Shown: positions 6,419 to 51,608 of the stretch, piece after piece | How the letters are laid out: each line of letters starts with the position of its first letter | Numbering within the stretch: position 1 is the stretch's first letter | DNA from: a virus | Direction: 5' to 3' (one strand) | Length of the DNA: 51,608 nt | IMG/VR virus record: IMGVR_UViG_3300030329_006107 | Coordinates: 36,309-87,916 of that record | Notes under the pieces: generated by a model | Told to the model about the DNA's origin: nothing | Database searches by the model: none | The model's input: the letters and a program-made list of their open reading frames with translations, nothing else | Made by a program: the position numbers and the translations under genes

Positions 6419-9400
6419 ATGTCTTACAATAGTTTAAAAAATTTGTTTGAGAAGAATTCGCAGAAAATAATCGCGCAGACTTCTAGTTTAGGTACTTTGG
6501 GCAATAAAACAGAGTCCGAAGGATATCTAAAGGCTTATAAAATATACAAAGAGAGAGTAACACCTCAGATTGACTTTTCTAAGCCTAAGAACTGGGTGCG
6601 CTACGGCTCTGCAGAACAATATTATGTCGACGCAGCGGCCAATATATATGATTCTTATCCTTATGACGGGTCTGAAAAAGAAAAAATAGAGTGGCACAAC
6701 AGCTCGTCGTACTTTGAAAACTATGTTTTTGAAGATGAATATCCTAGAACAAATGGACATATTGTTTTAAACAATATACGACCGTCTCCGGGCTCTGGAA
6801 GCTATGGTTCTGGTGGAGACCTACAATACATTTTAACAACTGGCTCAATGGCCAAAGACAATGTATATGATTTGTCTAAAAACAGAGCAGAAAATCTTTT
6901 TGTTGATATGTCAAAAGATGGAGCAACAGTAGAATTTTGGCTAAAAAAGAACGGATTTCTTGGCTCTCTGAAAACAAAAAGAGAAGTTATCTATGATTTA
7001 TGGAATCACGAGCCAGTTTCCAGCACAGCATACGGCCGATTACGAATTGAAATGGATTCGACAAGAGCAGATACGGTGTTTTTATTAACAGCATTCTCTG
7101 GTACTGCTGGCGTAAAATTGGCTACAATCGGAACAACAGGTTCTCACGGAGCTGGCTTTACAACTTCTAAAGTTGGCGATGATAAGTGGCAACACTATGC
7201 ATTTACTTTTAAGAATGCTACAACAAATAATATTGAATGTGAGATGTATCACAATGGCAAGTACATAGAAACAATTGTTACTGGTTCAAACATAAATGCT
7301 ATTTCCGGCGCCATATCTTGGTCACAAAATAAGCCAATAGTTTCTACAATTGGTGCTCTTGCCCATAGAACTTCTTATGCCTTAGATTCGATTGCAAAAT
7401 TAGGTCACGGATCTTTAAGTGCGTCGATAGATGAGTTTAGATTTTGGAAAACACGCAGAACTGCAAAAGAAATTGGAACTAACTGGTTTGGACAAGTTGG
7501 CGGTGGATCTAACACTGATGACGCAAACACAAAATTGGGCTTGTATTATAAGTTTAATGAAGGGATTACCACTACATCAACCATCGATGAAATTATATTA
7601 GATTACTCTGGTCGCGTATCAAATGGTAAATTTGTTGGATACAGCGCTGCTAGTAATCACAGAGCAACCGGATCAGCTATGTTGAATTCTGGATATGCTA
7701 AATTTGAGTTTAAAGATCCTATTATTTATGATGAACATCCAGATGTAAGCGCATATATAACTCAGAAAAAACTTACAGGCTCAATGTATGATGATACAAA
7801 TCCTTCATATTTGTACTACACGTTCCCTCAATGGGTTATTGAAGACGACGAAAAAGGACAGCTTCATAAATTAACTCAGATTATGGCCAGCTACTTTGAT
7901 TCTCTTCACTTGCAAATTTCTCAAATACACAAACTTAAGAGTGTCAACTATCCAAGCGGAAGCCAAAAGCCTTATCCGTTTATGAATCAACTTCTCAAGG
8001 ACAAGGGTTTTTATATATCTGAGCTTTTTAATAATTCTGACTTGATAGAGACCTATAGCAACCAAACAGAAGATTTTGTTATCAAAGACAAACTTCATGA
8101 TATTAAGAATAGAATCTATCAAAACATATATAATAACTTGACTTACATTTATAAAACAAAAGGTACTGAGCAATCTGTTACTGCTCTCTTGCGATGTCTT
8201 GGATTGGGCGATGATCTAGTAAAAGTAAATTATTATGGCAATAACAATGAGTATCTTTTCAGAGAGAATTTTAAAAATGCAACTGTAAAGAAAAGATTTC
8301 TCAATATGTCCGATTCTAATTTTACTGGAACGGTATATCAGAGCACAGGATCTTTTGGGCATGCTTCAAAAACGGCTTTCTATAATGCCCACGCAGCTTC
8401 GCATCTCCAAGGCGGAGAAAGCTTATACGACATACCAATGACTTTGGAAACTAATGTATTTTTTCCAAAGAATGTGGAAGGTTCAAATAATTTCAGTACT
8501 GAAATGACGTCCTCTATTGTTGGTATGCATACAGTCGACACGTCAGGTGATTTTGGTTCGCATTCAAATACATGGTCAAAAGAGGGATTCAACACCCCAG
8601 GTTCATTCGAGGACGCAGCAAATTTACATATTCTTGCTGAGAAGCATCCACAATTTAAACATCATGTTCGTTTTCACATATCAGGTTCCTATCGTGGAGC
8701 AATTGCAATGTCCAGCTCGTGGGTTAAAAACGTTTATGATAATGAACATTGGAATTTAAGTGCCCGTATTCGTCCCAAAAACCATGAACAATTCTATACT
8801 TACACAAATTTAGGCAAGGTTGGCGCCGCAGCCACAGCTATGTATACTAGTGCCTCATACGAATTGATTTTTCATGGCGCCCATGCTAATTTAGGTACAA
8901 TAGAGAAAGAGTTTACTTTAAGTAAGGACTTAACATTTAATCAAGCTACGGCTTTCTTAACAAGCTCTAAGAAGATTTATGTTGGTTCACACAGAATCAA
9001 CTACACAGGTAGTGTTATCAGCAAAAGTGACGTTGACGTGACTTCTGTAAGATTTTGGCACAACAATTTAACAGACCAAGAACTTCAGTCTCACATAAAA
9101 GACATAACAAATTATGGTGTTTCGGCGCCTTATGGTAATTCACTTATATCACTATCAGGAAACGCTCCTCATAATGATCAAAAATACATGAACACTTTAT
9201 CAGGAGCTTATGTCCCTAATTATAAGACACTGGCTCTTCATTGGAACTTTGAAAATATCTCTGGCTCCGGCCCGATTGGTGGTTTTGACGTCTTTGACTT
9301 TTCTTCGGCGTCAATGCCTTCGCCAGCCGACGCATATAACGATTTCACACCGTTTATTGAAAAATATAATTCTGGTGTTGGTCTAGGATTTAAGCCAAAT

Positions 9401-12400
9401 AGCACCAAAACTGTTGTTGAAAATTTTGTTTTTACTTCCAAACAGCAAGCTCCAGAAGTTTTAAACAGTTCCGATCAGATTGAAATTAAAAACTTTGATC
9501 AAGACGTCTTATCGAAAACACAAAGGCCAACAACTTATTTTGCGGCTATTGAAAAGAGTCCGTATCAAATTGTTTCTGATCAAATGTTGAACATGTTTTC
9601 TACAGTATTAGAGTTTAATAATATTATTGGACACCCTGTTCATAGATATCGTTTAGAATATAAACAATTAAATAAATTGAGGAATATATTCTTTCAAAGA
9701 GTTGGTAAATCCGTTGATTTTGATAGGTTTTTAGAATTTTATAAGTGGGTTGATTTTACAATCAACAAGATGTTAGAAAGTATTGTACCTGTATCAGCCA
9801 ATGTTTCTGGTGATATTAGAACAACTGTCGAGAGCCACCTTCTTGAAAGAAATAAATATAAGCATCCGTTTGTTAGATATATTGACGTTAATTTTGAACC
9901 GGAATATAAACCACTCCCGCCGCATCATGGTACCAACATGATTATTGGCGACACACCCCCAGGGTATAAAAAGTATTCTAAACAAACTCAGGGGGGCGCC
10001 GCAGACCCAACGACAGAGACTTCTAGGCATGCCTTCTTAGCACCAGCCGACGGCCCAATCAATCAGACAACAAATTATTTTGTTAACCCCGATAAAGGCG
10101 CCAAAACACTTAGAAATCATGAAATTAGTGCTAGGAACAAAAATACTATAGGCAACTCTATTGTAGATGCTAACAGAGAGGTATTGAGAAAAAATATCAT
10201 TTCTTCACTTTATAACAGAAGATTATCTCCTGGTATTTCCGCCGGCGTCGTGTTTCCAATCGAACAAGGCAACAATCAATATAAAAACAAAAAAATTAAT
10301 TTTGAAAAAGACGTTTTGCCGTTTAGAGGATCGTCTGAAACTAATAGTGACTATATTAAAGTTGATGTGACGGAATTAAATTCAGAATATGGATTGCAAG
10401 ATACAATCCCTCATCGACAAGAAAAGGAAAGGTTTAGTGGACAAGCTAGAGTATTCCAAAAAAATGAAGCTGGTAGCTTTATTGAGGAGGAAAATGTTTC
10501 AAAAATAGACACCGTGGCGCCATTTACAATTTATAAACAAAAAAATGATACAAACAGTCCAGTAAGTACAAATTTTAAAGCCAGTTATGAATTTACCAAT
10601 TTGCACCATGACAGTTATAATTCTGAAGTTCCCATGCAGGGCCCTTTTACCAATGAACATGTTGGGGGGCTTAGTTATCGTCACACACCAATTAACGTTG
10701 TCAATACAATAAAAACTAGTACTGATAACGAGTTAACTAGAGCTGAGGGGTGGAGAATACGTTTTACAGATGAAGTTGCCGCCACCGCGACATTCACATT
10801 TACTGATAAACCAAACGAAACTACCACAATAACATTGACCGACACGGAAGGCACATCGGTAGTATTCGAAGTTGATAATGACGGCGACGGCGCCGCCGGC
10901 ACAAATACGGCTATGGATCCTCCTACCAATAACGCCGCAGGAATGGCTTCAATCCTCATTAGTAGTGTTAATGCATCATCCCTAAATATTACCGCAACAT
11001 CCGGCGGCGGAGCCACTGGTGAAGTGCTTTTAACTCAAGACGTTAAAGGAGAGGCAGGAAACTCAGCCATAGTGCTTAGCAACTATAGTAACTGGAATGC
11101 CAATACAACAGCTACTTTCCCAACGAACTTTACCGGTGGTATAAATAAAGCAGCAAAAATTCACGGCCCTGGTGGGAATGGTTTCCACAAAGCCAGATCT
11201 TCATTTTACCGCGAAGAATTAGTTAAAAGACCTGTCAACATTAAAAATATCAAAACAGTCACGTCATCATTTAACGGACTAAGAATACTTGGAAACTATC
11301 ATCACAATTATGAACTTGTACAGACTGTTGGTTCTGATGTTAACAATCTTTGGTTTGTACATCATACAGGCAATCTTCCAAGTTCTGGATCCGATTCTAA
11401 ATCTATTGTTTTCAGTGACTTGCAAGATTACAAAGTAGACGAAAGAACTACGCTAAGAGATCTTTCAACAAGACAGAAAACTGTTATTAATGATAGATTT
11501 TCAGCTCCTGGCGGTCCCGAAGTCAATTCTCTTGGCTTCTTGGATGAAGCTTCTAGAACATACAGTGTATATAATAACTTAAACTACAGGAATTTGTCGG
11601 TCAGACAGCCCCTAAAAACGCTTCTAAGCGAAGCCGAAGGCAAATACATAGGTAACCCTGGCTTTAACCTTCGAAGGGCAGGAACAGCATCTTTTCATGA
11701 CATACACAATAATCATATATTATTACTAAAAAGACCAGGATCTACAGTATTAACATCATCAGTTTATAATAATGGTTTTGTGATTACACCGATTCCTTCT
11801 TCTGATCGTCAATATTCATGGATCACTTCATCATTAAATACACACCCTATAGGCGATTCCGCTCCACTAAGGCATGCGCACCCAAGTGGTGAAGAAAGAA
11901 AAGCAAAATCAAATGGTTACATCTATACTCCATCGATCACAACTATTAGTTCAAGTGAAATTAGTAGTTATATTGCTTCCGGCGCCAGAACATTTGGGGC
12001 CTATGATCAAAATAAGAAACCATCAGGCTTTGCAGCCGGCTCCCGGTGGGTGACAGATTTCGTCGGACTAAATACACATATTGTTTCTGCCGTTACAGCT
12101 AGCGAAAATTTCTTAAGCGGCTCTGGTTTTAATACAAAACTAATGACAACCACTGTCAACGCCGGAAGAGATGTTTTAAATACATATTTGCTTAAACACA
12201 ACGGGCCCTATCATTATCCGTCATTTAAACAAACAAGAGCTGGAGAACATCCGGTTGCCCGTCACATGCGCGCAAACAACAGAATATGTATTCAAAAACC
12301 CGCGCGCCTGTTCACAGATGACAATGGCAATTATTATAAAGAAATGCGCTCACCACATTTCAGATCTTTTACGGAACCAGTAGTTACTTCGCGATATAAG

Positions 12401-29522: not shown

Positions 29523-31202
29523 ATGCCTTATAAGAAGAAAGGTAAATGTGTTTATAAAAAAGACAATGGTAAAAAAGTTGGGTGCACGGTCGGTCCTGTA
29601 GATGATTACTTGGCCGCTTTGCATGCCAACGTAGAGGAAACAAATATGAAATTCACAAAAGAACAAATTGAACAAATAATTAAAGAAGAGCTTGAGGGCT
29701 TGCTCAATGAGATGATATTACATGAAGCCCCCGTCGTCGCACCAGAATTTCTTCCAAAAAACCAAACACCGGCCTCGGGCCCCCGCCGGCGCGCCTCTAC
29801 AACGATTATTGAAGATCCGCTCGACCTTGAGAGGGTGGGTCAACAAAGAAAACAAATGATGTCTCGCATGAGATCAGGCGCCCCCACTCCAACGAGACCA
29901 ATTACTCGAACACCTGGCGCCACGCCTACTCCAACGAGACCAGTCGCTCGAAGACCTGGCGCCGCACCCACTCCAACGAGAAAGGTCCCCAAACGCGCCG
30001 GCACTACGATTATTGAAGATCCGGTCGACCTTGAGAGAATGAGCCAACAAAGAAAACAAATGTTAGACCGTTTACGCCAAGGCGGCGCCACTCCGACGAG
30101 AACAATTCCTCGAACAAAAAGCGGTCGACTCCCTGCTCCTGCTCCAACTCGTCGTGTCGGTGGCGCCCGTGGAAAGGTTGCAGACGAGGCCACTAGACAG
30201 ATGCTTCAAGCTTTCCGAGAAGTTGGAATTAAGCCACCAAAAGGTTTGGACCTTGACTCTCGCGCAGGCCGAAAATGGATGACGGACGCAACTTCTAGAG
30301 CTGTTCAACGAAATCGTGCAAGAGGAAAATTGAAAGGAGGCATAGGTACCGGCGCGCGAGGACGCCTCCGAGGCGCAGGTCCTTTAGGTGCAGCCGCGGC
30401 CGGCCTCACCGTCGTTGACCTCATTGATGGAGGATTCATGGGGATCCCCGGACTGCGGCAAATATTAAGAAACGCCGGCGTCGACCTCTCTTCGAGAGAG
30501 GAATTAGCCGGATACCAGCGCGTTGTACCAGGAAAAGTAAAAGACACAGCACTCGATACACATACTGGTAAACTTCGGCGCACAAAGGGCGGTGTCGGCT
30601 TCGGTAAGCTTTCAGCTACTGATAAAGCCTTAATCAGACAAGCTGCATTCTTAAAAAAGCATGGACCAAACTCAAGACGTGGTAAAAAGTTCAGAGCAAA
30701 ATTATCTGACGAAGGGAAAGAACTAGCTTATCTTATAGACCAAGGAATTGTTCGGGGAATCCCAAAACGACGTCAAGGTGAATCAACTCAAGAGTTTAAG
30801 AAAAGATTATACGCTCAGCGAATCAAGGCGCTCCAACCAAAAGATAAGTATGGTCGACCCGGTCGACGCTATGATGTCGCAGGTGGCCCTCATAGACGAG
30901 GCTCCTCGGTTTTTCAAGAGTCCAACGTAGAAATTAAGAGAGCAAGATTAAAGCAAATTATAAAAGAAGAAGTAGCCCGCCTGGATCGATTGCTTGAAGG
31001 AAAATTAGCTGATCAGGTATACGAAGACAGTACTGGTCGCCGCGGAACAGTTTTATCTCAAACCCTCTGCGAAGCCGGAACCGTAACACATTATGATGTA
31101 GAATTTGATGACGAGATTATATTAAACCTTCCAACAGAAGAACTAACAGTCATTACAGAAAAGACACAAAATACAAAATCCTCTAAAGGAAGTGAAAAAT
31201 GA
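29523..31202 (+). CDS. basic, tag-bearing protein, possible internal head protein
   Basis: A 559-residue, strongly Arg/Lys-rich protein. Residues 1-38 are a small module with Cys9 and Cys21 ('GKCVYKKDNGKKVGC'). Residues 42-63 read 'MKFTKEQIEQIIKEELEG' plus 'LLNE': an amphipathic tag also seen at the start of the next gene and at 47561. Residue 42 is itself a Met, with a GAGGA ribosome site seven bases before it (ATG at 29646), so a second start is possible. Residues 92-205 carry repeated 'TTIIEDP-x-DLER' and 'PTPTR' units. Residues about 290-310 are Ala/Gly-rich. A second 'ARLKQIIKEEVARL' tag lies near residue 480. Possible protease sites: 'LHE|A' at residue 68, 'LLE|G' near 495. A packaged, DNA-binding head protein is plausible but unproven. 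Confidence 0.7.
   Translation: MPYKKKGKCVYKKDNGKKVGCTVGPVDDYLAALHANVEETNMKFTKEQIEQIIKEELEGLLNEMILHEAPVVAPEFLPKNQTPASGPRRRASTTIIEDPLDLERVGQQRKQMMSRMRSGAPTPTRPITRTPGATPTPTRPVARRPGAAPTPTRKVPKRAGTTIIEDPVDLERMSQQRKQMLDRLRQGGATPTRTIPRTKSGRLPAPAPTRRVGGARGKVADEATRQMLQAFREVGIKPPKGLDLDSRAGRKWMTDATSRAVQRNRARGKLKGGIGTGARGRLRGAGPLGAAAAGLTVVDLIDGGFMGIPGLRQILRNAGVDLSSREELAGYQRVVPGKVKDTALDTHTGKLRRTKGGVGFGKLSATDKALIRQAAFLKKHGPNSRRGKKFRAKLSDEGKELAYLIDQGIVRGIPKRRQGESTQEFKKRLYAQRIKALQPKDKYGRPGRRYDVAGGPHRRGSSVFQESNVEIKRARLKQIIKEEVARLDRLLEGKLADQVYEDSTGRRGTVLSQTLCEAGTVTHYDVEFDDEIILNLPTEELTVITEKTQNTKSSKGSEK
29799..30120 (+). repeat. coding tandem repeats (14-residue unit and 68-residue unit)
   Basis: Within the basic protein gene, a unit of about 42 bases encoding 'PTPTRP-x-x-R-x-PG' is repeated with variation about three to four times between 29880 and 30110. 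A longer unit, beginning with 'TTIIEDP' and running through 'QQRKQM' and a second Arg-rich segment, starts at 29799 and again at 30003. The repeats are in frame and GC-richer than the surroundings. They look like expanded linker sequence. Confidence 0.75.
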
Positions 31203-31585
31203 AAATTTCAAAACAAAGACTTGTTGAATTAATAAACGAAGAGCTAGAAAAAGATGCTCAAGAGGTGTTAAACGAATATGGCGCTTACACTGCTATTTCA
31301 TCTGGGGTTGGTGACAATCCAGCTTTGCGAAACAGTACTCATCCAGACCCAGTTAATGATCTAAAGTCTCTAGAAGTAGGACAATTAGATGATATAGCTA
31401 CAACTGGACTAGACGGATTATTCAACAATGTTCAGATTGCATCAAGAATTATAGAAGATCTTCCTTTCGAAGAAATCTCTAATTCAAATATTGCAGACAT
31501 GCTTGTTGATGCAGCAGAATTAATCCGAGCAGCCTTGGACAATATCGCTATGGAACGCGAACGTGAAGAAAAGGGATATATTTAA
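31199..31585 (+). CDS. small acidic protein with N-terminal 'INEEL'-type tag
   Basis: A 128-residue acidic protein whose start overlaps the upstream stop as ATGA. The first 26 residues ('MKISKQRLVELINEELEKDA', then 'QEVLNE') form a Lys/Glu amphipathic helix like the tag in the upstream protein and in the protein at 47561-47965, ending in Leu-Asn-Glu, a possible gp21-type cleavage site. The rest is predicted helical, with an acidic C-terminus rich in Arg-Glu. It looks like a small virion or internal protein rather than an enzyme. No family recognised. The 73-base gap after it holds a candidate promoter for the gp46/47 gene. Confidence 0.7.
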   Translation: MKISKQRLVELINEELEKDAQEVLNEYGAYTAISSGVGDNPALRNSTHPDPVNDLKSLEVGQLDDIATTGLDGLFNNVQIASRIIEDLPFEEISNSNIADMLVDAAELIRAALDNIAMEREREEKGYI

Positions 31586-31658: not shown

Positions 31659-34600
31659 ATGCGATTTGCTCATATAGCGGACACTCATATCCGCAATTTG
31701 AAATACCACAAAGAATATCGTGCAGTATTTCAACAACTATATAAAAAACTTGAAGAATTAGATGTTGATTACATCGTTCATTGCGGCGATATAGCCCATA
31801 CAAAGACACAAATAAGTCCAGAGTTCGTTGACCTGTGCAGTGATTTTTTTAGGAACTTGGCGAATATAGCTCCTACATACATAATATTGGGGAATCATGA
31901 TGGCAACTTAAGAAATTCATATCGACAAGACGCACTAACACCGATTGTTAATGCGTTGGATAATCCGAATTTAAAGTTGATTAAAAACTCCGGGGAGGTT
32001 AATCTCGATGATACTTTTACGCTTAATGTCTTATCTGTGTTTGATACTGATAATTGGACGAATCCATCCGACAGCACCAAAGTTAATATTGCTCTTTATC
32101 ACGGCTCCATATCAAATTGTCAAACTGACGCTGGCTGGATTATGGAATATGGGGAAAATGATATATCTATTTTTGATAGATTCGATTATGCTTTTCTCGG
32201 AGACATTCATAAAACTAACCAACAGCTTGATAAAGAAGGCCGAATCCGATATTGTGGATCTACTGTACAACAGAATCACGGAGAAACAGACGACAAAGGC
32301 TTTCTTATATGGGACATCGAAGACAAAGAGACGTTCTCAGTAAAACATTACGTACTGACTAATCCTAAGCCGTTTAAGACGATTGTTCTCACTCCGAAGG
32401 GTAGGATGCCAAAGGGCACAGAAATCCCGTCTAAGGCACGTTTACGGCTGGTTTCTGAGAATACACTACCTTTGGATGTAATTCGCAAAGCAATTGATGT
32501 AGCTAAGGTTCGTTTTAAGCCCGAGGCCATAACATACTTGTGTCGATCTGATGGGCACTCTGGATTAGATAGTTCTGTTAATTCTCTTGTACAAGAAGAT
32601 TTGCGAGATATTGCAGTACAAGAGGGACTGATTGAGGAGTACATAAAAGACTATCAGGTTGATGAAGATGTTATACAGAAAGTTTTTGATCTGAATAAAA
32701 AATATAATACTCTTGTTGAAGAGGAGGAAGAGGTAAGCAGGAACGTCAACTGGAAACTTAAACGTATTGAGTGGGATAATTTATTCAACTATGATGAAGG
32801 AAATAGTGTTGATTTTTATGATCTTAATGGCGTTGTTGGCATTTTAGGGAAAAACTTTTCTGGCAAGTCAAGCATTATTGATAGTCTTTTATATACCTTA
32901 TACAATACAACTTCAAAAAACAACAGAAGAAATTATAACGTTATTAACCAAAATAAGGAAGAATGCAGAGGACTTGTGCAAATTGACATTGGTACAAAAA
33001 CATATTCAATTGAAAGAACCAGTAAAAAATATGTCAAAAAATTAAAAGGTAAAATTACTAACGAAGCCAAGACGGACGTTGAGTTCACTGTTCACGACAA
33101 CGCTACAGGAGTTGAACAAGAATTAAACGGCACTAGTAGGATAGAGACTGATAAGAATATTAGAAAAATATTTGGAACTGTTGACGATTTTTTGATGACG
33201 TCGATGGCTTCGCAGCTAGGTTCTTTGAGTTATATTAGTGAAGGCTCGACAAAAAGAAAAGAAATTCTTGCTAAATTTCTTGACTTAGAAATATTTGATA
33301 AGAAATTTAAGATGGCCAAAGAGGATTCTTCTGATATCAAAGCGATGATCCGAAAAATGTCACAACGTGATTTTATTCAAGAGGCAAAACTTGCAAGAAC
33401 AGATTTGGCTAGAAGTGAAGCTGAAACCTCTTTAAAACAGAAGGAATGCAAAAAGTTAGCCAATAAAATAAATAAGTTAAATTCTGACTTGGTTGAATGT
33501 GAAAAACTGATTTCATCAATCCCGGCAGAAATAATTGATATTACTATGGTTAATCATAGGCTGCAAGATTTGATTAACAAGATAGATATTTTAAAATCAG
33601 ACAACGCTGGATATGAACAACAACTAAAAGAAAAACAACAGTTTTATGAAAAGATAGTTGCATTTGTAGATGTATTTGACGTTGATTCGCTCAAAGAAAA
33701 GCAAGACCTGATCAGATCAAGCCAAGAGAAGATTGTTGCTTTCGAGTCAGAGATAGAAACTGAGAGTACTAGAATAGGATTGTTAAAGAAGAAAGTTAAG
33801 TTATTGGATGAAGTACCATGTGGAGAAGAGTTTTCTCACTGTAAATTCATTAAAGATGCATATACAGCAAAGAACAAAATCATACCAGTGCAAGACATTA
33901 TTGACAAACTTAATTCAAAAGTTGGCAAAGTATCGAAAGATATTAATGATTTAAATCCGGATCAATTGCAAGATCATTTCGAAAAGTTTCAGAAAATAAC
34001 CAAAAAGAAAAACGATACTCTTAATGAAATCAATGAGTTAAAGCTTGAAATAGAGAAAACAAAGACTCATGTTTTAAGATTTGGTCAAGAAAGAAGTATA
34101 CTTGAAATTAAGAGAGAAGAATACGAAAACAACAAAGAGGCGATTGAAAATCTTGAAAGTTTGCTGGAACAAAAAACGAACCATGAAGACGAGATAAAGG
34201 ATTATAAAAGAAAGTATGAAAGATGCCAAAAAGAATCCATGGAGCTGTACAAACAAAATGGGTTTTTAGAACAAAAGTTGGAACAAATAAGCCTGGATGA
34301 ACAAGAGTATGAAAATTTAAATGCTCAGTTTACAGCTTATGACTTGTTCCAGAGATGTATGCATTCAAACGGTATTTCATATGACATTATTAAAAAGAGG
34401 CTTCCAATAATCAATGAGGAGATATCAAAGATCTTAACAAACATTGTTGATTTTGATACTCTATTTGATAATGAGGAAAATAAATTAGATATCTTAATTA
34501 AACATCCTCGCTTTGAGCCACGACCAATTGAGATGGGCTCCGGAGCCGAGAAAACAATATGCGCTATGGCCATTCGTTTAGCTCTTTTAAATGTTTCGAC

Positions 34601-34808
34601 ACTGCCAAAAGGCGACATCTTTATCTTAGATGAGCCCGGAACGGCTTTAGATGAAGATAATATGGAAGGGTTCGTAAGAATCTTAGATATGATCAGTACA
34701 CAATTTAAGACTGTTTTATTAATTTCGCATCTAGATAGTCTTAAGGATACGGTCGAACAACAAATTACAATTGACAAAATTGATGGCTACGCACATGTCA
34801 ACCATTAA
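31659..34808 (+). CDS. fused SbcD-SbcC (gp47-gp46) recombination nuclease/ATPase
   Basis: A 1049-residue single chain combining two normally separate proteins. Residues 1-300 are a Mre11/SbcD/gp47 calcineurin-like nuclease: 'HIADTHIR' (4-11), 'HCGDIAH' (~41), 'LGNHDG' (~76), 'LYHGS' (~146), 'LGDIHK' (~185), all metal-binding motifs intact. Residues ~362-1045 are Rad50/SbcC/gp46: Walker A 'GKNFSGKSS' (~397), two coiled-coil arms with a hook at Cys721-x6-Cys728 ('CGEEFSHC'), signature 'MGSGAEKTICAMAIRLAL' (959), Walker B 'FILDEPGTALDE' with Asp991/Glu992. In T4, gp46 and gp47 form a complex that resects DNA ends for recombination-dependent replication. Here the linker (~320-362) is short and no stop or internal start with a ribosome site is evident. 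It starts after a TGGAG site and may have its own host-type promoter. Confidence 0.92.
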   Translation: MRFAHIADTHIRNLKYHKEYRAVFQQLYKKLEELDVDYIVHCGDIAHTKTQISPEFVDLCSDFFRNLANIAPTYIILGNHDGNLRNSYRQDALTPIVNALDNPNLKLIKNSGEVNLDDTFTLNVLSVFDTDNWTNPSDSTKVNIALYHGSISNCQTDAGWIMEYGENDISIFDRFDYAFLGDIHKTNQQLDKEGRIRYCGSTVQQNHGETDDKGFLIWDIEDKETFSVKHYVLTNPKPFKTIVLTPKGRMPKGTEIPSKARLRLVSENTLPLDVIRKAIDVAKVRFKPEAITYLCRSDGHSGLDSSVNSLVQEDLRDIAVQEGLIEEYIKDYQVDEDVIQKVFDLNKKYNTLVEEEEEVSRNVNWKLKRIEWDNLFNYDEGNSVDFYDLNGVVGILGKNFSGKSSIIDSLLYTLYNTTSKNNRRNYNVINQNKEECRGLVQIDIGTKTYSIERTSKKYVKKLKGKITNEAKTDVEFTVHDNATGVEQELNGTSRIETDKNIRKIFGTVDDFLMTSMASQLGSLSYISEGSTKRKEILAKFLDLEIFDKKFKMAKEDSSDIKAMIRKMSQRDFIQEAKLARTDLARSEAETSLKQKECKKLANKINKLNSDLVECEKLISSIPAEIIDITMVNHRLQDLINKIDILKSDNAGYEQQLKEKQQFYEKIVAFVDVFDVDSLKEKQDLIRSSQEKIVAFESEIETESTRIGLLKKKVKLLDEVPCGEEFSHCKFIKDAYTAKNKIIPVQDIIDKLNSKVGKVSKDINDLNPDQLQDHFEKFQKITKKKNDTLNEINELKLEIEKTKTHVLRFGQERSILEIKREEYENNKEAIENLESLLEQKTNHEDEIKDYKRKYERCQKESMELYKQNGFLEQKLEQISLDEQEYENLNAQFTAYDLFQRCMHSNGISYDIIKKRLPIINEEISKILTNIVDFDTLFDNEENKLDILIKHPRFEPRPIEMGSGAEKTICAMAIRLALLNVSTLPKGDIFILDEPGTALDEDNMEGFVRILDMISTQFKTVLLISHLDSLKDTVEQQITIDKIDGYAHVNH

Positions 34809-46788: not shown

Positions 46789-46899
46789 ATGAAAAAAGAA
46801 ATAAAAAACAATCCAGCTTCATATGTTTGGGGCGTTAAGAATCCTACAAAAGTGGCCAACAAATATAATGGATTTGGAGTGAAAAAGAATAAGCAATGA
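46789..46899 (+). CDS. 36-residue peptide coupled to the prohead protease
   Basis: An ATG at 46789 opens a 36-residue ORF ('MKKEIKNNPASYVWGVKNPT' plus a basic tail) that ends TGA at 46897-46899 and overlaps the protease start as ATGA. The overlap suggests it is translated and couples the protease to it. The ribosome site is weak (ATTGGAAATAA). The product is very basic and has no known motif; it could be a small head protein. Confidence 0.5.
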   Translation: MKKEIKNNPASYVWGVKNPTKVANKYNGFGVKKNKQ

Positions 46900-47549
46900 C
46901 TAAGAAACTTTTAACAGAATATTTTGAATTATGTCCGGACGGCAATTGTGTCCTCGACGTTCTTACTGAGGGCGAAAAGAAATCTTTTCAAGAAGGAGCA
47001 GTGTTTTTGGTTGGTGTTTGCCAAAGAGCCGGCGTAAAAAATGGCAATGGTAGAATATATCGCAAAGACACACTTCAACGAGAAGTCGAGAATTATCAAA
47101 AACTTGTGAAAGAGAGAAGAGCGCTTGGAGAACTCGATCACCCAGATGATTCTGTTATTAATTTAAAAAATACGTCTCATTTGATTACAAAGATGTGGTG
47201 GAATGGTGATGACGTCATGTGCAAATTGGAAGTTTTATCTACTCCAAGTGGATTAGTGCTTAAAGAACTTATTAAATCTGGCGTTAAATTGGGTATCTCT
47301 TCTAGGGGTTTAGGCTCTGTTAAAAATCAAAATGGACAGACAATCGTAGAAGATGATTTTAAATTAATTGGTTTTGATATGGTTTCGGATCCTTCTACCC
47401 CTGGGGCCTTCGTGGGTCCTGAAAAGACAATAAGCTCAAGTCCTGAATTGGCTGACTTTTTGTCAAAAGTGTCAGAAAGCAAGACAATCACAGAGGGCAC
47501 CAGGAATGATAAATTTAATAGTGCTCTAGATGACATACTGAAAAGTTAG
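46896..47549 (+). CDS. 21: prohead maturation protease, gp21-like
   Basis: A 217-residue serine protease of the gp21/herpes assemblin fold, close to T4 gp21 (about 210). The catalytic His82 lies in 'GELDHPDD' and the Ser in 'LGISSRGLG' (Ser135, with Ser136 next to it), the two characteristic motifs of this family. After prohead assembly it cuts capsid and core proteins, typically after Leu/Ile-x-Glu, and destroys itself. It is followed by a tag-bearing protein and the bS21 homologue, then scaffold and capsid, matching the T4 order 21-22-23. Start: ATG overlapping the short upstream ORF. Confidence 0.92.
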   Translation: MTKKLLTEYFELCPDGNCVLDVLTEGEKKSFQEGAVFLVGVCQRAGVKNGNGRIYRKDTLQREVENYQKLVKERRALGELDHPDDSVINLKNTSHLITKMWWNGDDVMCKLEVLSTPSGLVLKELIKSGVKLGISSRGLGSVKNQNGQTIVEDDFKLIGFDMVSDPSTPGAFVGPEKTISSSPELADFLSKVSESKTITEGTRNDKFNSALDDILKS

Positions 47550-47560
47550 AGAAGTGATAA

Positions 47561-47965
47561 ATGAAAAAAAATGAAATTAAAAAAATTATTAAACCAATTG
47601 TAAAAGAGTGCATTAATGAGATTTTATTGCAGAAAGAAGGCGTACTTGCTTCTGTTGTATCTGAAGTTGCTCGTGGGCTACAACAAACCACTAGCCCAAT
47701 TGTTGAAAACAAAACAAATGCTCAGGATGAAGCAGAAGCACGAGAACTAGAAAGAAAATACGAGCAAGATAGACAAGAAAGAATTAAGAGACTAAACGAA
47801 TCAGTTGGTGCCGATTTTTTTAAAGGAACGGCCCCCGCTCCCGCGGCAACTCCCGAGTCCTCCATTCCAGGACCTTTATCCGGAGTAGCCGCTCATGACG
47901 CCGGCGTAGATATTAGAGGCTTGATGTCCGTCGCCGGCAAAAGATGGAAGAAACATACAAAGTAA
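47561..47965 (+). CDS. small protein with N-terminal 'KKIIK' tag
   Basis: A 134-residue protein beginning 'MKKNEIKKIIKPIVKECINE' and going on 'ILLQKEG': a Lys/Glu amphipathic stretch like the tags at 29646 and 31199, ending in candidate Glu cleavage positions. The middle is a charged helix ('AEARELERKYEQDRQERIKR') and the C-terminal part is Pro/Ala/Gly-rich. Its place directly downstream of the protease fits a prohead core or internal head protein processed by that protease (inference). It overlaps the bS21 gene's possible longer form. Confidence 0.65.
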   Translation: MKKNEIKKIIKPIVKECINEILLQKEGVLASVVSEVARGLQQTTSPIVENKTNAQDEAEARELERKYEQDRQERIKRLNESVGADFFKGTAPAPAATPESSIPGPLSGVAAHDAGVDIRGLMSVAGKRWKKHTK

Positions 47966-47970
47966 AAACA

Positions 47971-48213
47971 ATGAGTAGAAAAAGACCTGTCAATGTTGAA
48001 GTAAAACTACGACATGCTAAAGATGATCCCAATAAACTGATTAGAAAGTTTATAAAAAAGGTTAAAAAACAAAAAATTTTAGAGGAAGTTCGGGAACGAA
48101 GGTATTACGAAAAGCCTACAACAAAAAGAAGAAAAGCTAAAATTAAAAAATTAAAGAATGCAAGAAAAAGTCAAGCAGAGAGAGATAAAAAAGTAAAACT
48201 GCGATCTAGATAA
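47971..48213 (+). CDS. bacterial ribosomal protein bS21 homologue
   Basis: An 80-residue, very basic protein matching bS21, a small ribosomal subunit protein near the mRNA exit and the anti-Shine-Dalgarno. Seen: a short strand ('PVNVEVKLR'), then 'LIRKFIKKVKKQKILEEVRE' and 'RRYYEKPTTKRRKAK', which parallel the bS21 pattern of two helices with 'R-R-x-x-Y-E-K-P-(T/S)' near the middle. I start at ATG 47971; an in-frame ATG at 47944 would add nine residues but has no ribosome site and lies inside the upstream gene. Phage bS21 homologues are known in some marine and jumbo phages; here it is placed in the late head operon, between protease and scaffold. It may replace or supplement host bS21 (inference). 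Confidence 0.85.
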   Translation: MSRKRPVNVEVKLRHAKDDPNKLIRKFIKKVKKQKILEEVRERRYYEKPTTKRRKAKIKKLKNARKSQAERDKKVKLRSR

Positions 48214-50467: not shown

Positions 50468-51608
50468 ATGTCTGTTTTACAAAAGTTGACTGAAGGTCTC
50501 GTCAAGCGCGATCTCCAGAAGGAAGGTGCTGCTCTCATGGATAAATGGGAAGCCACAGGTCTTCTTGAGGGTCTTGACAGTGACCACAATAAAAATACAA
50601 TGGCTCGCTTGCTTGAAAACCAAGCATCTGAGCTTCTTAGAGAGGCCAGCTCAATGGCAGCTGGTGACGTCGAAGGTTTTGCTTCCGTAGCATTCCCTAT
50701 CGTTCGTCGTGTTTTTGGCGGACTTATCGCCAATGATCTTGTTTCGGTCCAGCCGATGAGCTTGCCTTCGGGACTCATCTTCTTCTTGGACTTCACATAC
50801 ACCGATGGAAAAGCTGGTGTCGACGCTGGAGATTCCCTCTTCGGTGGCGGAGTTGTTGGTAAAGCCATCATTAGTGGTACTTCGGACATCACTGAAGAAG
50901 GCGGCGGATTCTACAATCTTGCTAATAATTACTCTTCAACCACTGGTAGTGCTAACGTTACGCTAGCTGCCGGTTCCGTTGTCGGCGGCGCGACTCCTGT
51001 TGCTATTTCTGCTCTGACAGAAGCTCAAAAGAAAGATCTTCGTTTCGACCCAGATCTTCTAGCCAGCACTTCAACTTACCAAGTTGCCGAGTTAACATGT
51101 GATGCCACATCCTTAACAGGATTGAATCACAATGCTCTCGGAGGAATCGATGTTTGGGGTGGTGGTACCGCACTCGTCGATGCTGGTAACACTAGCATCA
51201 TCCGTCGATTGACCAAGTACGTTCCATCGACAGGTAAGATCCACATCTACACTTTAGATACTTCCGCTGGTACAGACGATAACACTGGTGCTCGTGGACT
51301 TCAATGGCCACAGAAAGACACCTTTGTCAAAGGACCCGATGGTCTTGGTAACGTTGTTGGTTCAACCCCATGGGGACTTGAAGCTGCTGATCACAACCAC
51401 AATCAATCAGATTATGCTGGTTGGGATCCTAATGCTGATAATGGAGACAAGAACAGAATTCCTGAGATCGACATCAAAGTTGACAGCACACCTGTCACCG
51501 CGATGACCAAAAAGCTCAAAGCTAAGTGGACTCCGGAACTCGGTCAAGACCTCAATGCTTACCACAACCTCGACGCTGAAGTTGAACTTACCTCGATTCT
51601 TTCCGAGC
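50468..51608 (+). CDS. 23: major capsid protein, gp23-like, 3' end missing
   Basis: The first 380 codons of the major head protein; the gene runs off the window. The mature-domain start 'VEGFASVAFPIVRRVFGGLI' with 'ANDLVSVQPMSLPSGLIFFL' is the hallmark sequence of T4-superfamily major capsid proteins. The N-terminal 59 residues ('LLREASSMAA' at the boundary) form the propeptide; Leu-Arg-Glu59|Ala60 fits the gp21 cleavage consensus. Synonymous codon choice is strongly biased towards C-ending Leu, Asn, Asp and Phe codons compared with its neighbours, as expected of the most abundant protein. Confidence 0.95.
   Translation, partial: MSVLQKLTEGLVKRDLQKEGAALMDKWEATGLLEGLDSDHNKNTMARLLENQASELLREASSMAAGDVEGFASVAFPIVRRVFGGLIANDLVSVQPMSLPSGLIFFLDFTYTDGKAGVDAGDSLFGGGVVGKAIISGTSDITEEGGGFYNLANNYSSTTGSANVTLAAGSVVGGATPVAISALTEAQKKDLRFDPDLLASTSTYQVAELTCDATSLTGLNHNALGGIDVWGGGTALVDAGNTSIIRRLTKYVPSTGKIHIYTLDTSAGTDDNTGARGLQWPQKDTFVKGPDGLGNVVGSTPWGLEAADHNHNQSDYAGWDPNADNGDKNRIPEIDIKVDSTPVTAMTKKLKAKWTPELGQDLNAYHNLDAEVELTSILSE

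Follow-up and report, generated by a model that had tools for sequence, protein, structure and literature searches.

A widespread Lys/Glu-rich N-terminal helix of phage proteins as a candidate capsid-targeting sequence

Could short segments rich in lysine and glutamate direct otherwise unrelated proteins into the head of an uncultured phage, to be removed there by the prohead protease? The question is raised by the window, a stretch of 51,608 nucleotides (bases 36309-87916 of an 87.9-kb IMG/VR virus record), which is T4-like and encodes the portal protein, an S77 prohead protease, an acidic scaffold-like protein and gp23, in that order. The initial annotation had proposed that three of its proteins carry a similar segment, at 29646, 31199 and 47561, with a second copy in the first protein. 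The peptides MKFTKEQIEQIIKEEL, VEIKRARLKQIIKEEV, MKISKQRLVELINEEL and MKKNEIKKIIKPIVKE were all located in the sequence where it had placed them. The features of the first two proteins are as follows; a bar within a site marks the putative cut.

29523..31202, + strand: protein 1, 559 aa (open reading frame and translation), made up of a KGKCVYKK module, tag copy 1, a Pro/Arg-rich body, tag copy 2 and a HYDVEFDD module.
29646..29693, + strand: tag copy 1, MKFTKEQIEQIIKEEL, with an internal ATG after GAGG; 20.3 bits with the tag profile; matches the tag pattern, with 0 matches in shuffles.
29703..29711, + strand: LNE|M, a putative prohead-protease site following tag copy 1; its E is tag residue 22, where [LI]xE sites peak in the population.
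29718..29726, + strand: putative prohead-protease site LHE|A, read from the sequence with the consensus L/I-X-E (PMC9026906).
30927..30974, + strand: tag copy 2, VEIKRARLKQIIKEEV, internal; 16.8 bits; in relative L008 the homologous copy opens a protein of its own.
30990..30998, + strand: LLE|G, a putative site following tag copy 2, read from the sequence; LFE|G in the translation of relative L007.
31199..31585, + strand: protein 2, 128 aa, tagged (open reading frame; three relatives aligned).
31199..31246, + strand: tag of protein 2, MKISKQRLVELINEEL; 26.1 bits; conserved in relatives L007 and L003.
31268..31276, + strand: putative site LNE|Y, invariant in the three aligned relatives, though the residues directly before it vary.

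The tag reads as a short Lys/Glu-rich helix of about 16 residues with the motif MK(I/L)(T/S)KxxLxx(I/L)IxEE(L/I). In the window, the tag pattern gave 2 matches against 0 in 100 shuffles. Across the whole record, a profile of the tag found exactly three copies of at least 8 bits, starting at 29646, 30927 and 31199, while 369 kb of control loci yielded none at this level, their noise reaching a maximum of 7.1 bits. Of the three proteins put forward, those tagged at 29646 and 31199 are clear carriers; the third is not, and is taken up below.

Protein 1 is not a simple N-terminally tagged protein. Tag copy 1 occupies codons 42-57 of the 559-aa frame and so does not stand at its first codon; because it has its own ATG preceded by GAGG, an internal start at this copy is possible. 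The LHE|A site claimed behind it is present, and LNE|M precedes it. The second copy reported near the C-terminus is likewise in place. In the L007 counterpart, the KGKCVYKK module runs directly into the second tag and the HYDVEFDD module, relatives being without the ~380-aa middle part of protein 1, and in L008 the second tag opens a separate 166-aa protein (9032-9532). Since the region belongs to much shorter proteins in these relatives, the frame 29523-31202 is a fusion, whose second copy corresponds to the N-terminal tag of another gene in L008. Pfam and PHROG gave no match for protein 1. A near-duplicate stretch (TTIIEDPLDLERVGQQRKQMMSRMRSG / TTIIEDPVDLERMSQQRKQMLDRLRQG) and Pro/Thr/Arg-rich repeats also occur in it, within the part that relatives lack.

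Protein 2 begins with the tag, and the expected L/I-x-E site follows it as LNE|Y. Neither Pfam nor PHROG indicated a function, and the predicted structure, helical and of low confidence (pLDDT 47), was too poor to use. Further downstream, a 1049-aa open reading frame (31659-34808), read from its sequence, resembles a fusion of an Mre11-like nuclease (gp47) and a Rad50-like ATPase (gp46).

The third protein lies in the head cluster, where the following features are placed.

46896..47549, + strand: prohead protease, Peptidase_S77 (T4 gp21 type); PF03420, E 9e-33; phrog_207, E 6e-57; aligned with cultured relatives.
47561..47965, + strand: protein 3, 134 aa, conserved head-cluster protein with a variant N-terminal helix; tag score 3.7 bits, 6-12.8 in several orthologues.
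50468..51608, + strand: major capsid protein gp23, an open-ended frame that runs off the window, homologous to gp23 of cultured phages.
50636..50644, + strand: probable gp23 maturation site LRE|A, from position and conservation among the gp23 N-termini of 15 phages.

The third gene does adjoin the protease gene, as had been noted. Its N-terminal peptide MKKNEIKKIIKPIVKE (47561-47608) reaches only 3.7 bits where control noise goes up to 7.1, so that its own sequence does not support a similarity to the tag, and as a plain member of the family it was rejected; it was readmitted as a variant through its orthologues only. Seventeen orthologues lie directly 3' of the protease in the head cluster of tag phages, several of them, MKKSELKNIIKECVREVIFEEG included, scoring 6-12.8 bits with the tag profile, and conservation is strongest over their N-terminal ~40 residues. 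The predicted structure has a helix at residues 3-24 (pLDDT about 86) and the model found no PDB match; Pfam and PHROG again gave no function. We regard protein 3 as a probable core head protein bearing a variant tag. Behind it in the head cluster lies a gene for ribosomal protein S21 (47944-48213), in the same place as in the cultured Microcystis phage Mel-JY01, and the acidic scaffold-like protein of that phage (L146, 8842-9942) has a tag-like stretch, MKKEKLVQLVKEE, inside it (9.3 bits).

What the initial annotation treated as a new tag type turns up far beyond this phage. A search of IMG/VR with a degenerate DNA pattern for M-K-phi-x-K-x-x-[LIM]-x-x-[LIM]-[IV]-x-E-E-phi gave at least 120 matches, compared with 1 for the same pattern shifted one base out of register, 7, mainly out of frame, for a residue-scrambled pattern of equal content, and 34 for a Lys/Glu-rich non-amphipathic one. 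A completed scan of 84,980 cellular genomes (257 Gb) gave 34 matches to the tag pattern, most of them out of frame, very short (a few codons) or on likely phage contigs; the clear ones are mainly on metagenome-assembled contigs, some with many tags. Two cellular genomes have an S77 gene and a tag on one contig (G112:C7, G117:C5), and a third (G111) has tags and protease on separate contigs. Two contigs may be mis-binned phages: PBIO01000025.1 (L236, L245, L248; filed as a Halobacteriovorax MAG) with 14 tags, and NHDW01000006.1 (L254; filed as a Methylococcaceae MAG) with 11. In the 120 loci listed from IMG/VR, the profile had 262 matches, 251 of which stand at a start codon. These sequence comparisons establish the tag as a genuine N-terminal element, widespread and specific to phages.

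Searching other phages found the tag widely, including in the cultured Flavobacterium phage vB_FspM_immuto. This phage encodes an S77 protease (E 7e-36) and carries the tag on proteins at 102250, 102836 and 113144 (QQO92331.1, QQO92332.1, QQO92346.1; tag peptide MKKSELVKLIKEEL); a virion proteome for it was absent from the open-access literature searched. A tblastn search of cultured phages and plasmids with short tag peptides returned almost no matches, for which the low-complexity filter may account; because tags were found in a cultured phage by another route, we do not read this result as absence. In the 484 kb uncultured phage LR756508 (L150-L155), arrays of tagged genes occur, some directly 5' of an S77 protease gene.

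T4 gp21 cleaves behind L/I-X-E (PMC9026906). Among 222 distinct tag proteins, 108 have [LI]xE with its Glu 3-12 residues past the core Glu, against 42.6 (sd 5.2) in shuffles, and 47 have [LI]xE[AGSN] in the same interval, against 11.4 (sd 2.9), an enrichment of about fourfold. Neither [LI]xD nor [LI]xQ is enriched behind the tag, and [LI]xK is so only mildly. Untagged genes of the same loci have these sites less often (18% versus 49% of tag proteins for [LI]xE, p 1e-20; 7.0% versus 21% for [LI]xE[AGSN], p 1e-9). Of the [LI]xE sites, 35 of 112 near the tag are followed by Ala or Gly, compared with 28 of 232 within bodies. Conserved LTE|G, LLE|G and LRE|A, the same kind of site as behind the tag, occur in gp23 propeptides from tag phages, and by analogy with T4 we infer that they are cut. 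In the window, LRE|A is the probable gp23 maturation site, judged by its position and its conservation in relatives, and would be homologous to the T4 cut; relatives mostly have L-R/K-E|A/S/T at this position, others ISE|A, VSE|A or IDE|S.

The distribution of the protease points in the same direction. PF03420 occurs in 41 of the 69 tag records (28/48 plus 13/21) but in 3 of the 26 controls (Fisher p 2e-5), which differ from the tag records in habitat and length, and two of the three control matches are weak. Nine of the ten tag contigs of at least 119 kb have S77, and the long near relative G058 has S77 together with 7 tags. For 28 of the 69 tag records no S77 gene was found; many of these are fragments, and only four are evidently cut at the head cluster, three of them stopping at the portal gene and the fourth starting within gp23. 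The 135-kb tag contig G028 remains as an exception. An HK97-type S78 protease, considered as a substitute, was not found in the S77-less tag contigs.

We put at roughly 60% the probability that the tag targets proteins to the capsid from their N-terminus, as a longer and Lys/Glu-rich variant of the T4 sequence, and that the prohead protease removes it. The amphipathic tag helix would dock a newly made protein through its hydrophobic stripe on the scaffold or core of the growing prohead. The S77 protease would then cut [LI]xE within the helix core (IxE|E/A) or just past it (LxE|A/G/S/N, 3-12 residues on); after the cut the body would stay inside the head, and ejection into the next host could follow. 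What the sequences themselves show is the tag, its position at the N-terminus, the unrelated bodies behind it, its association with S77 phages and the enriched site; the steps from docking and cutting to packaging and ejection are inferred. The capsid-targeting proposal of the initial annotation survives in its recurrent modular tag, its link to S77 phages, the [LI]xE[AGSN] enrichment and a T4-like spacing, and loses ground in protein 3, which has only a variant of the tag, and in protein 1, a fusion with the tag inside the frame. We also count against it the S77-less records, the half of tag proteins without a site, the lack of a profile match to T4 and the one internal tag in the window.

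The main rival is docking without cleavage: here the tag would serve as a helix for docking or oligomerisation, assembling small phage proteins on one shared partner (scaffold, portal, tail or host factor), uncut and not necessarily in the head. An amphipathic helix is indeed predicted, about half of the tag proteins are without [LI]xE in the 3-12 interval, and internal and C-terminal copies occur. Certain proteins carry two tags, and in L071, L093 and L116 tag-like segments were seen at the extreme C-terminus of certain proteins; T4 Alt is reportedly cut at its C-terminus as well (PMC9026906). An uncut helix leaves unaccounted for why the enrichment is specific to [LI]xE with A/G/S/N after it, rather than [LI]xD or [LI]xQ, and why the tag is associated with S77 genes, and we hold it unlikely.

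It is quite improbable that the tag has no targeting role, being shared by fast-evolving paralogues alike only at their N-terminus or kept as a start region for translation. Tandem arrays are frequent, with 72 adjacent tag-tag gene pairs in the 120 loci listed, as paralogues would give. But the tagged bodies in these loci comprise 242 distinct, unrelated ones; Pfam and PHROG searches found little function among them, and the rare matches include distinct folds (one GNAT acetyltransferase, one pentapeptide-repeat and one FliG-like protein). Furthermore, tags within one genome are separated by synonymous changes, which implies that the peptide rather than the DNA is kept, and in different proteins the tag stands before, between and behind shared modules. 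That the helix serves membrane targeting or some other localisation (the inner membrane, say, as the site of T4 prohead assembly, or a replication compartment) is very improbable, since the starting Lys, the hydrophobic stripe and a moderate hydrophobic moment (0.29-0.38 in N-terminal copies) are set against the two or three Glu that end the helix, a moment no higher than the 0.44 of the T4 signal, and the [LI]xE[AGSN] enrichment left unexplained.

Returning to capsid targeting with cleavage, a broader form of it is possible but doubtful: the tag may mark a large undescribed class of head-packaged, probably injected proteins in uncultured S77 phages that range from the size of T4 to a huge 484 kb, among them multi-module polyproteins with internal tags, which the prohead protease would split in the head. 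The head cargo of many uncultured phages would then be readable from sequence, with about 240 candidates in 120 loci, nearly all without known function. T4 internal proteins include IPI, an inhibitor of host restriction (PMC9026906), so lists of tagged cargo would be a natural place to look for proteins of first host contact. If true, the tag would also provide a new packaging signal for loading proteins into phage heads; as a sequence marker, it would point out phage contigs mis-binned into bacterial genomes.

The closest known system is the T4 capsid-targeting sequence (CTS), which gp21 removes from IPI, IPII, IPIII and Alt. Both elements are short, N-terminal and borne by unrelated small proteins, in phages with an [LI]xE site and an S77 protease. 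The N-terminus of IPII and IPIII is MKTYQEFIAE|A, and its Y4-F7-I8-E10 has the same spacing as L8-I11-I12-E14 of the tag (phi-x-x-phi-I-x-E). In T4 IPIII, mutations show that residues 4 and 7 mainly govern targeting and residues 8 and 10 processing, and packaging of a foreign protein into heads by the signal has been addressed with a fusion experiment (PMC9026906). Only tags found without the pattern bear on conservation, because the pattern forced L/I8, I11, I12, E14 and E15; in 73 such tags, percentages that are biased by a profile trained on other tags are 100% for L/I8 (L8 94%), 67% for I11, 100% for I/V/L12 (I12 93%) and 88% for E14, followed by E15 (58%) or A15 (16%). Unlike the CTS, the tag has about 16 residues, is Lys/Glu-rich, usually has a second site past the helix, and occurs in internal and C-terminal copies. 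The tag profile did not match T4 IPI, IPII or IPIII (MKTYQEFIAE / MKTFKEFTST), and we therefore say that the tag works like the T4 signal, not that it is that signal. The tag family, unlike the CTS, is unnamed in the open-access papers searched, where no phage paper contained the tag strings, a result that falls short of showing the tag to be undescribed.

Kyanoviridae offer a second comparison. Their T4-type N-termini (MKKFSAFLNEA of the ACG-2014a cytidylyltransferase; MKKFKQYIDEG of phage C48C1), CTS-like in our reading rather than by annotation, resemble the tag in standing on small accessory proteins and share some body modules with tagged proteins, but are Phe/Tyr-based. A strict T4-type pattern matched 4 of 121 genes in Kyanoviridae loci and 0 of 1554 in tag loci. 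In C48C1, a 105-aa protein combines the MKKFKQYIDEG start with a module AEYQGKKVTLNKP...RHNCANPGPKWKARYWSCRNW (RHNC), and the same AEYQGKKVTLNKP module lies behind the tag MKIAKSQLLEIIREEI in L119. Hence a T4-type signal and the tag precede one module in different phages; the module is no proof of head packaging by itself, because it also occurs in podophages. The head propeptides of the giant phages phiKZ and SPN3US are mostly longer than 100 residues, with an S/A-x-E site and a distantly related protease; as is proposed for the tag, they are cut by the prohead protease, are thought to target proteins to the head, and place identical N-termini on diverged paralogues (PMC5694885).
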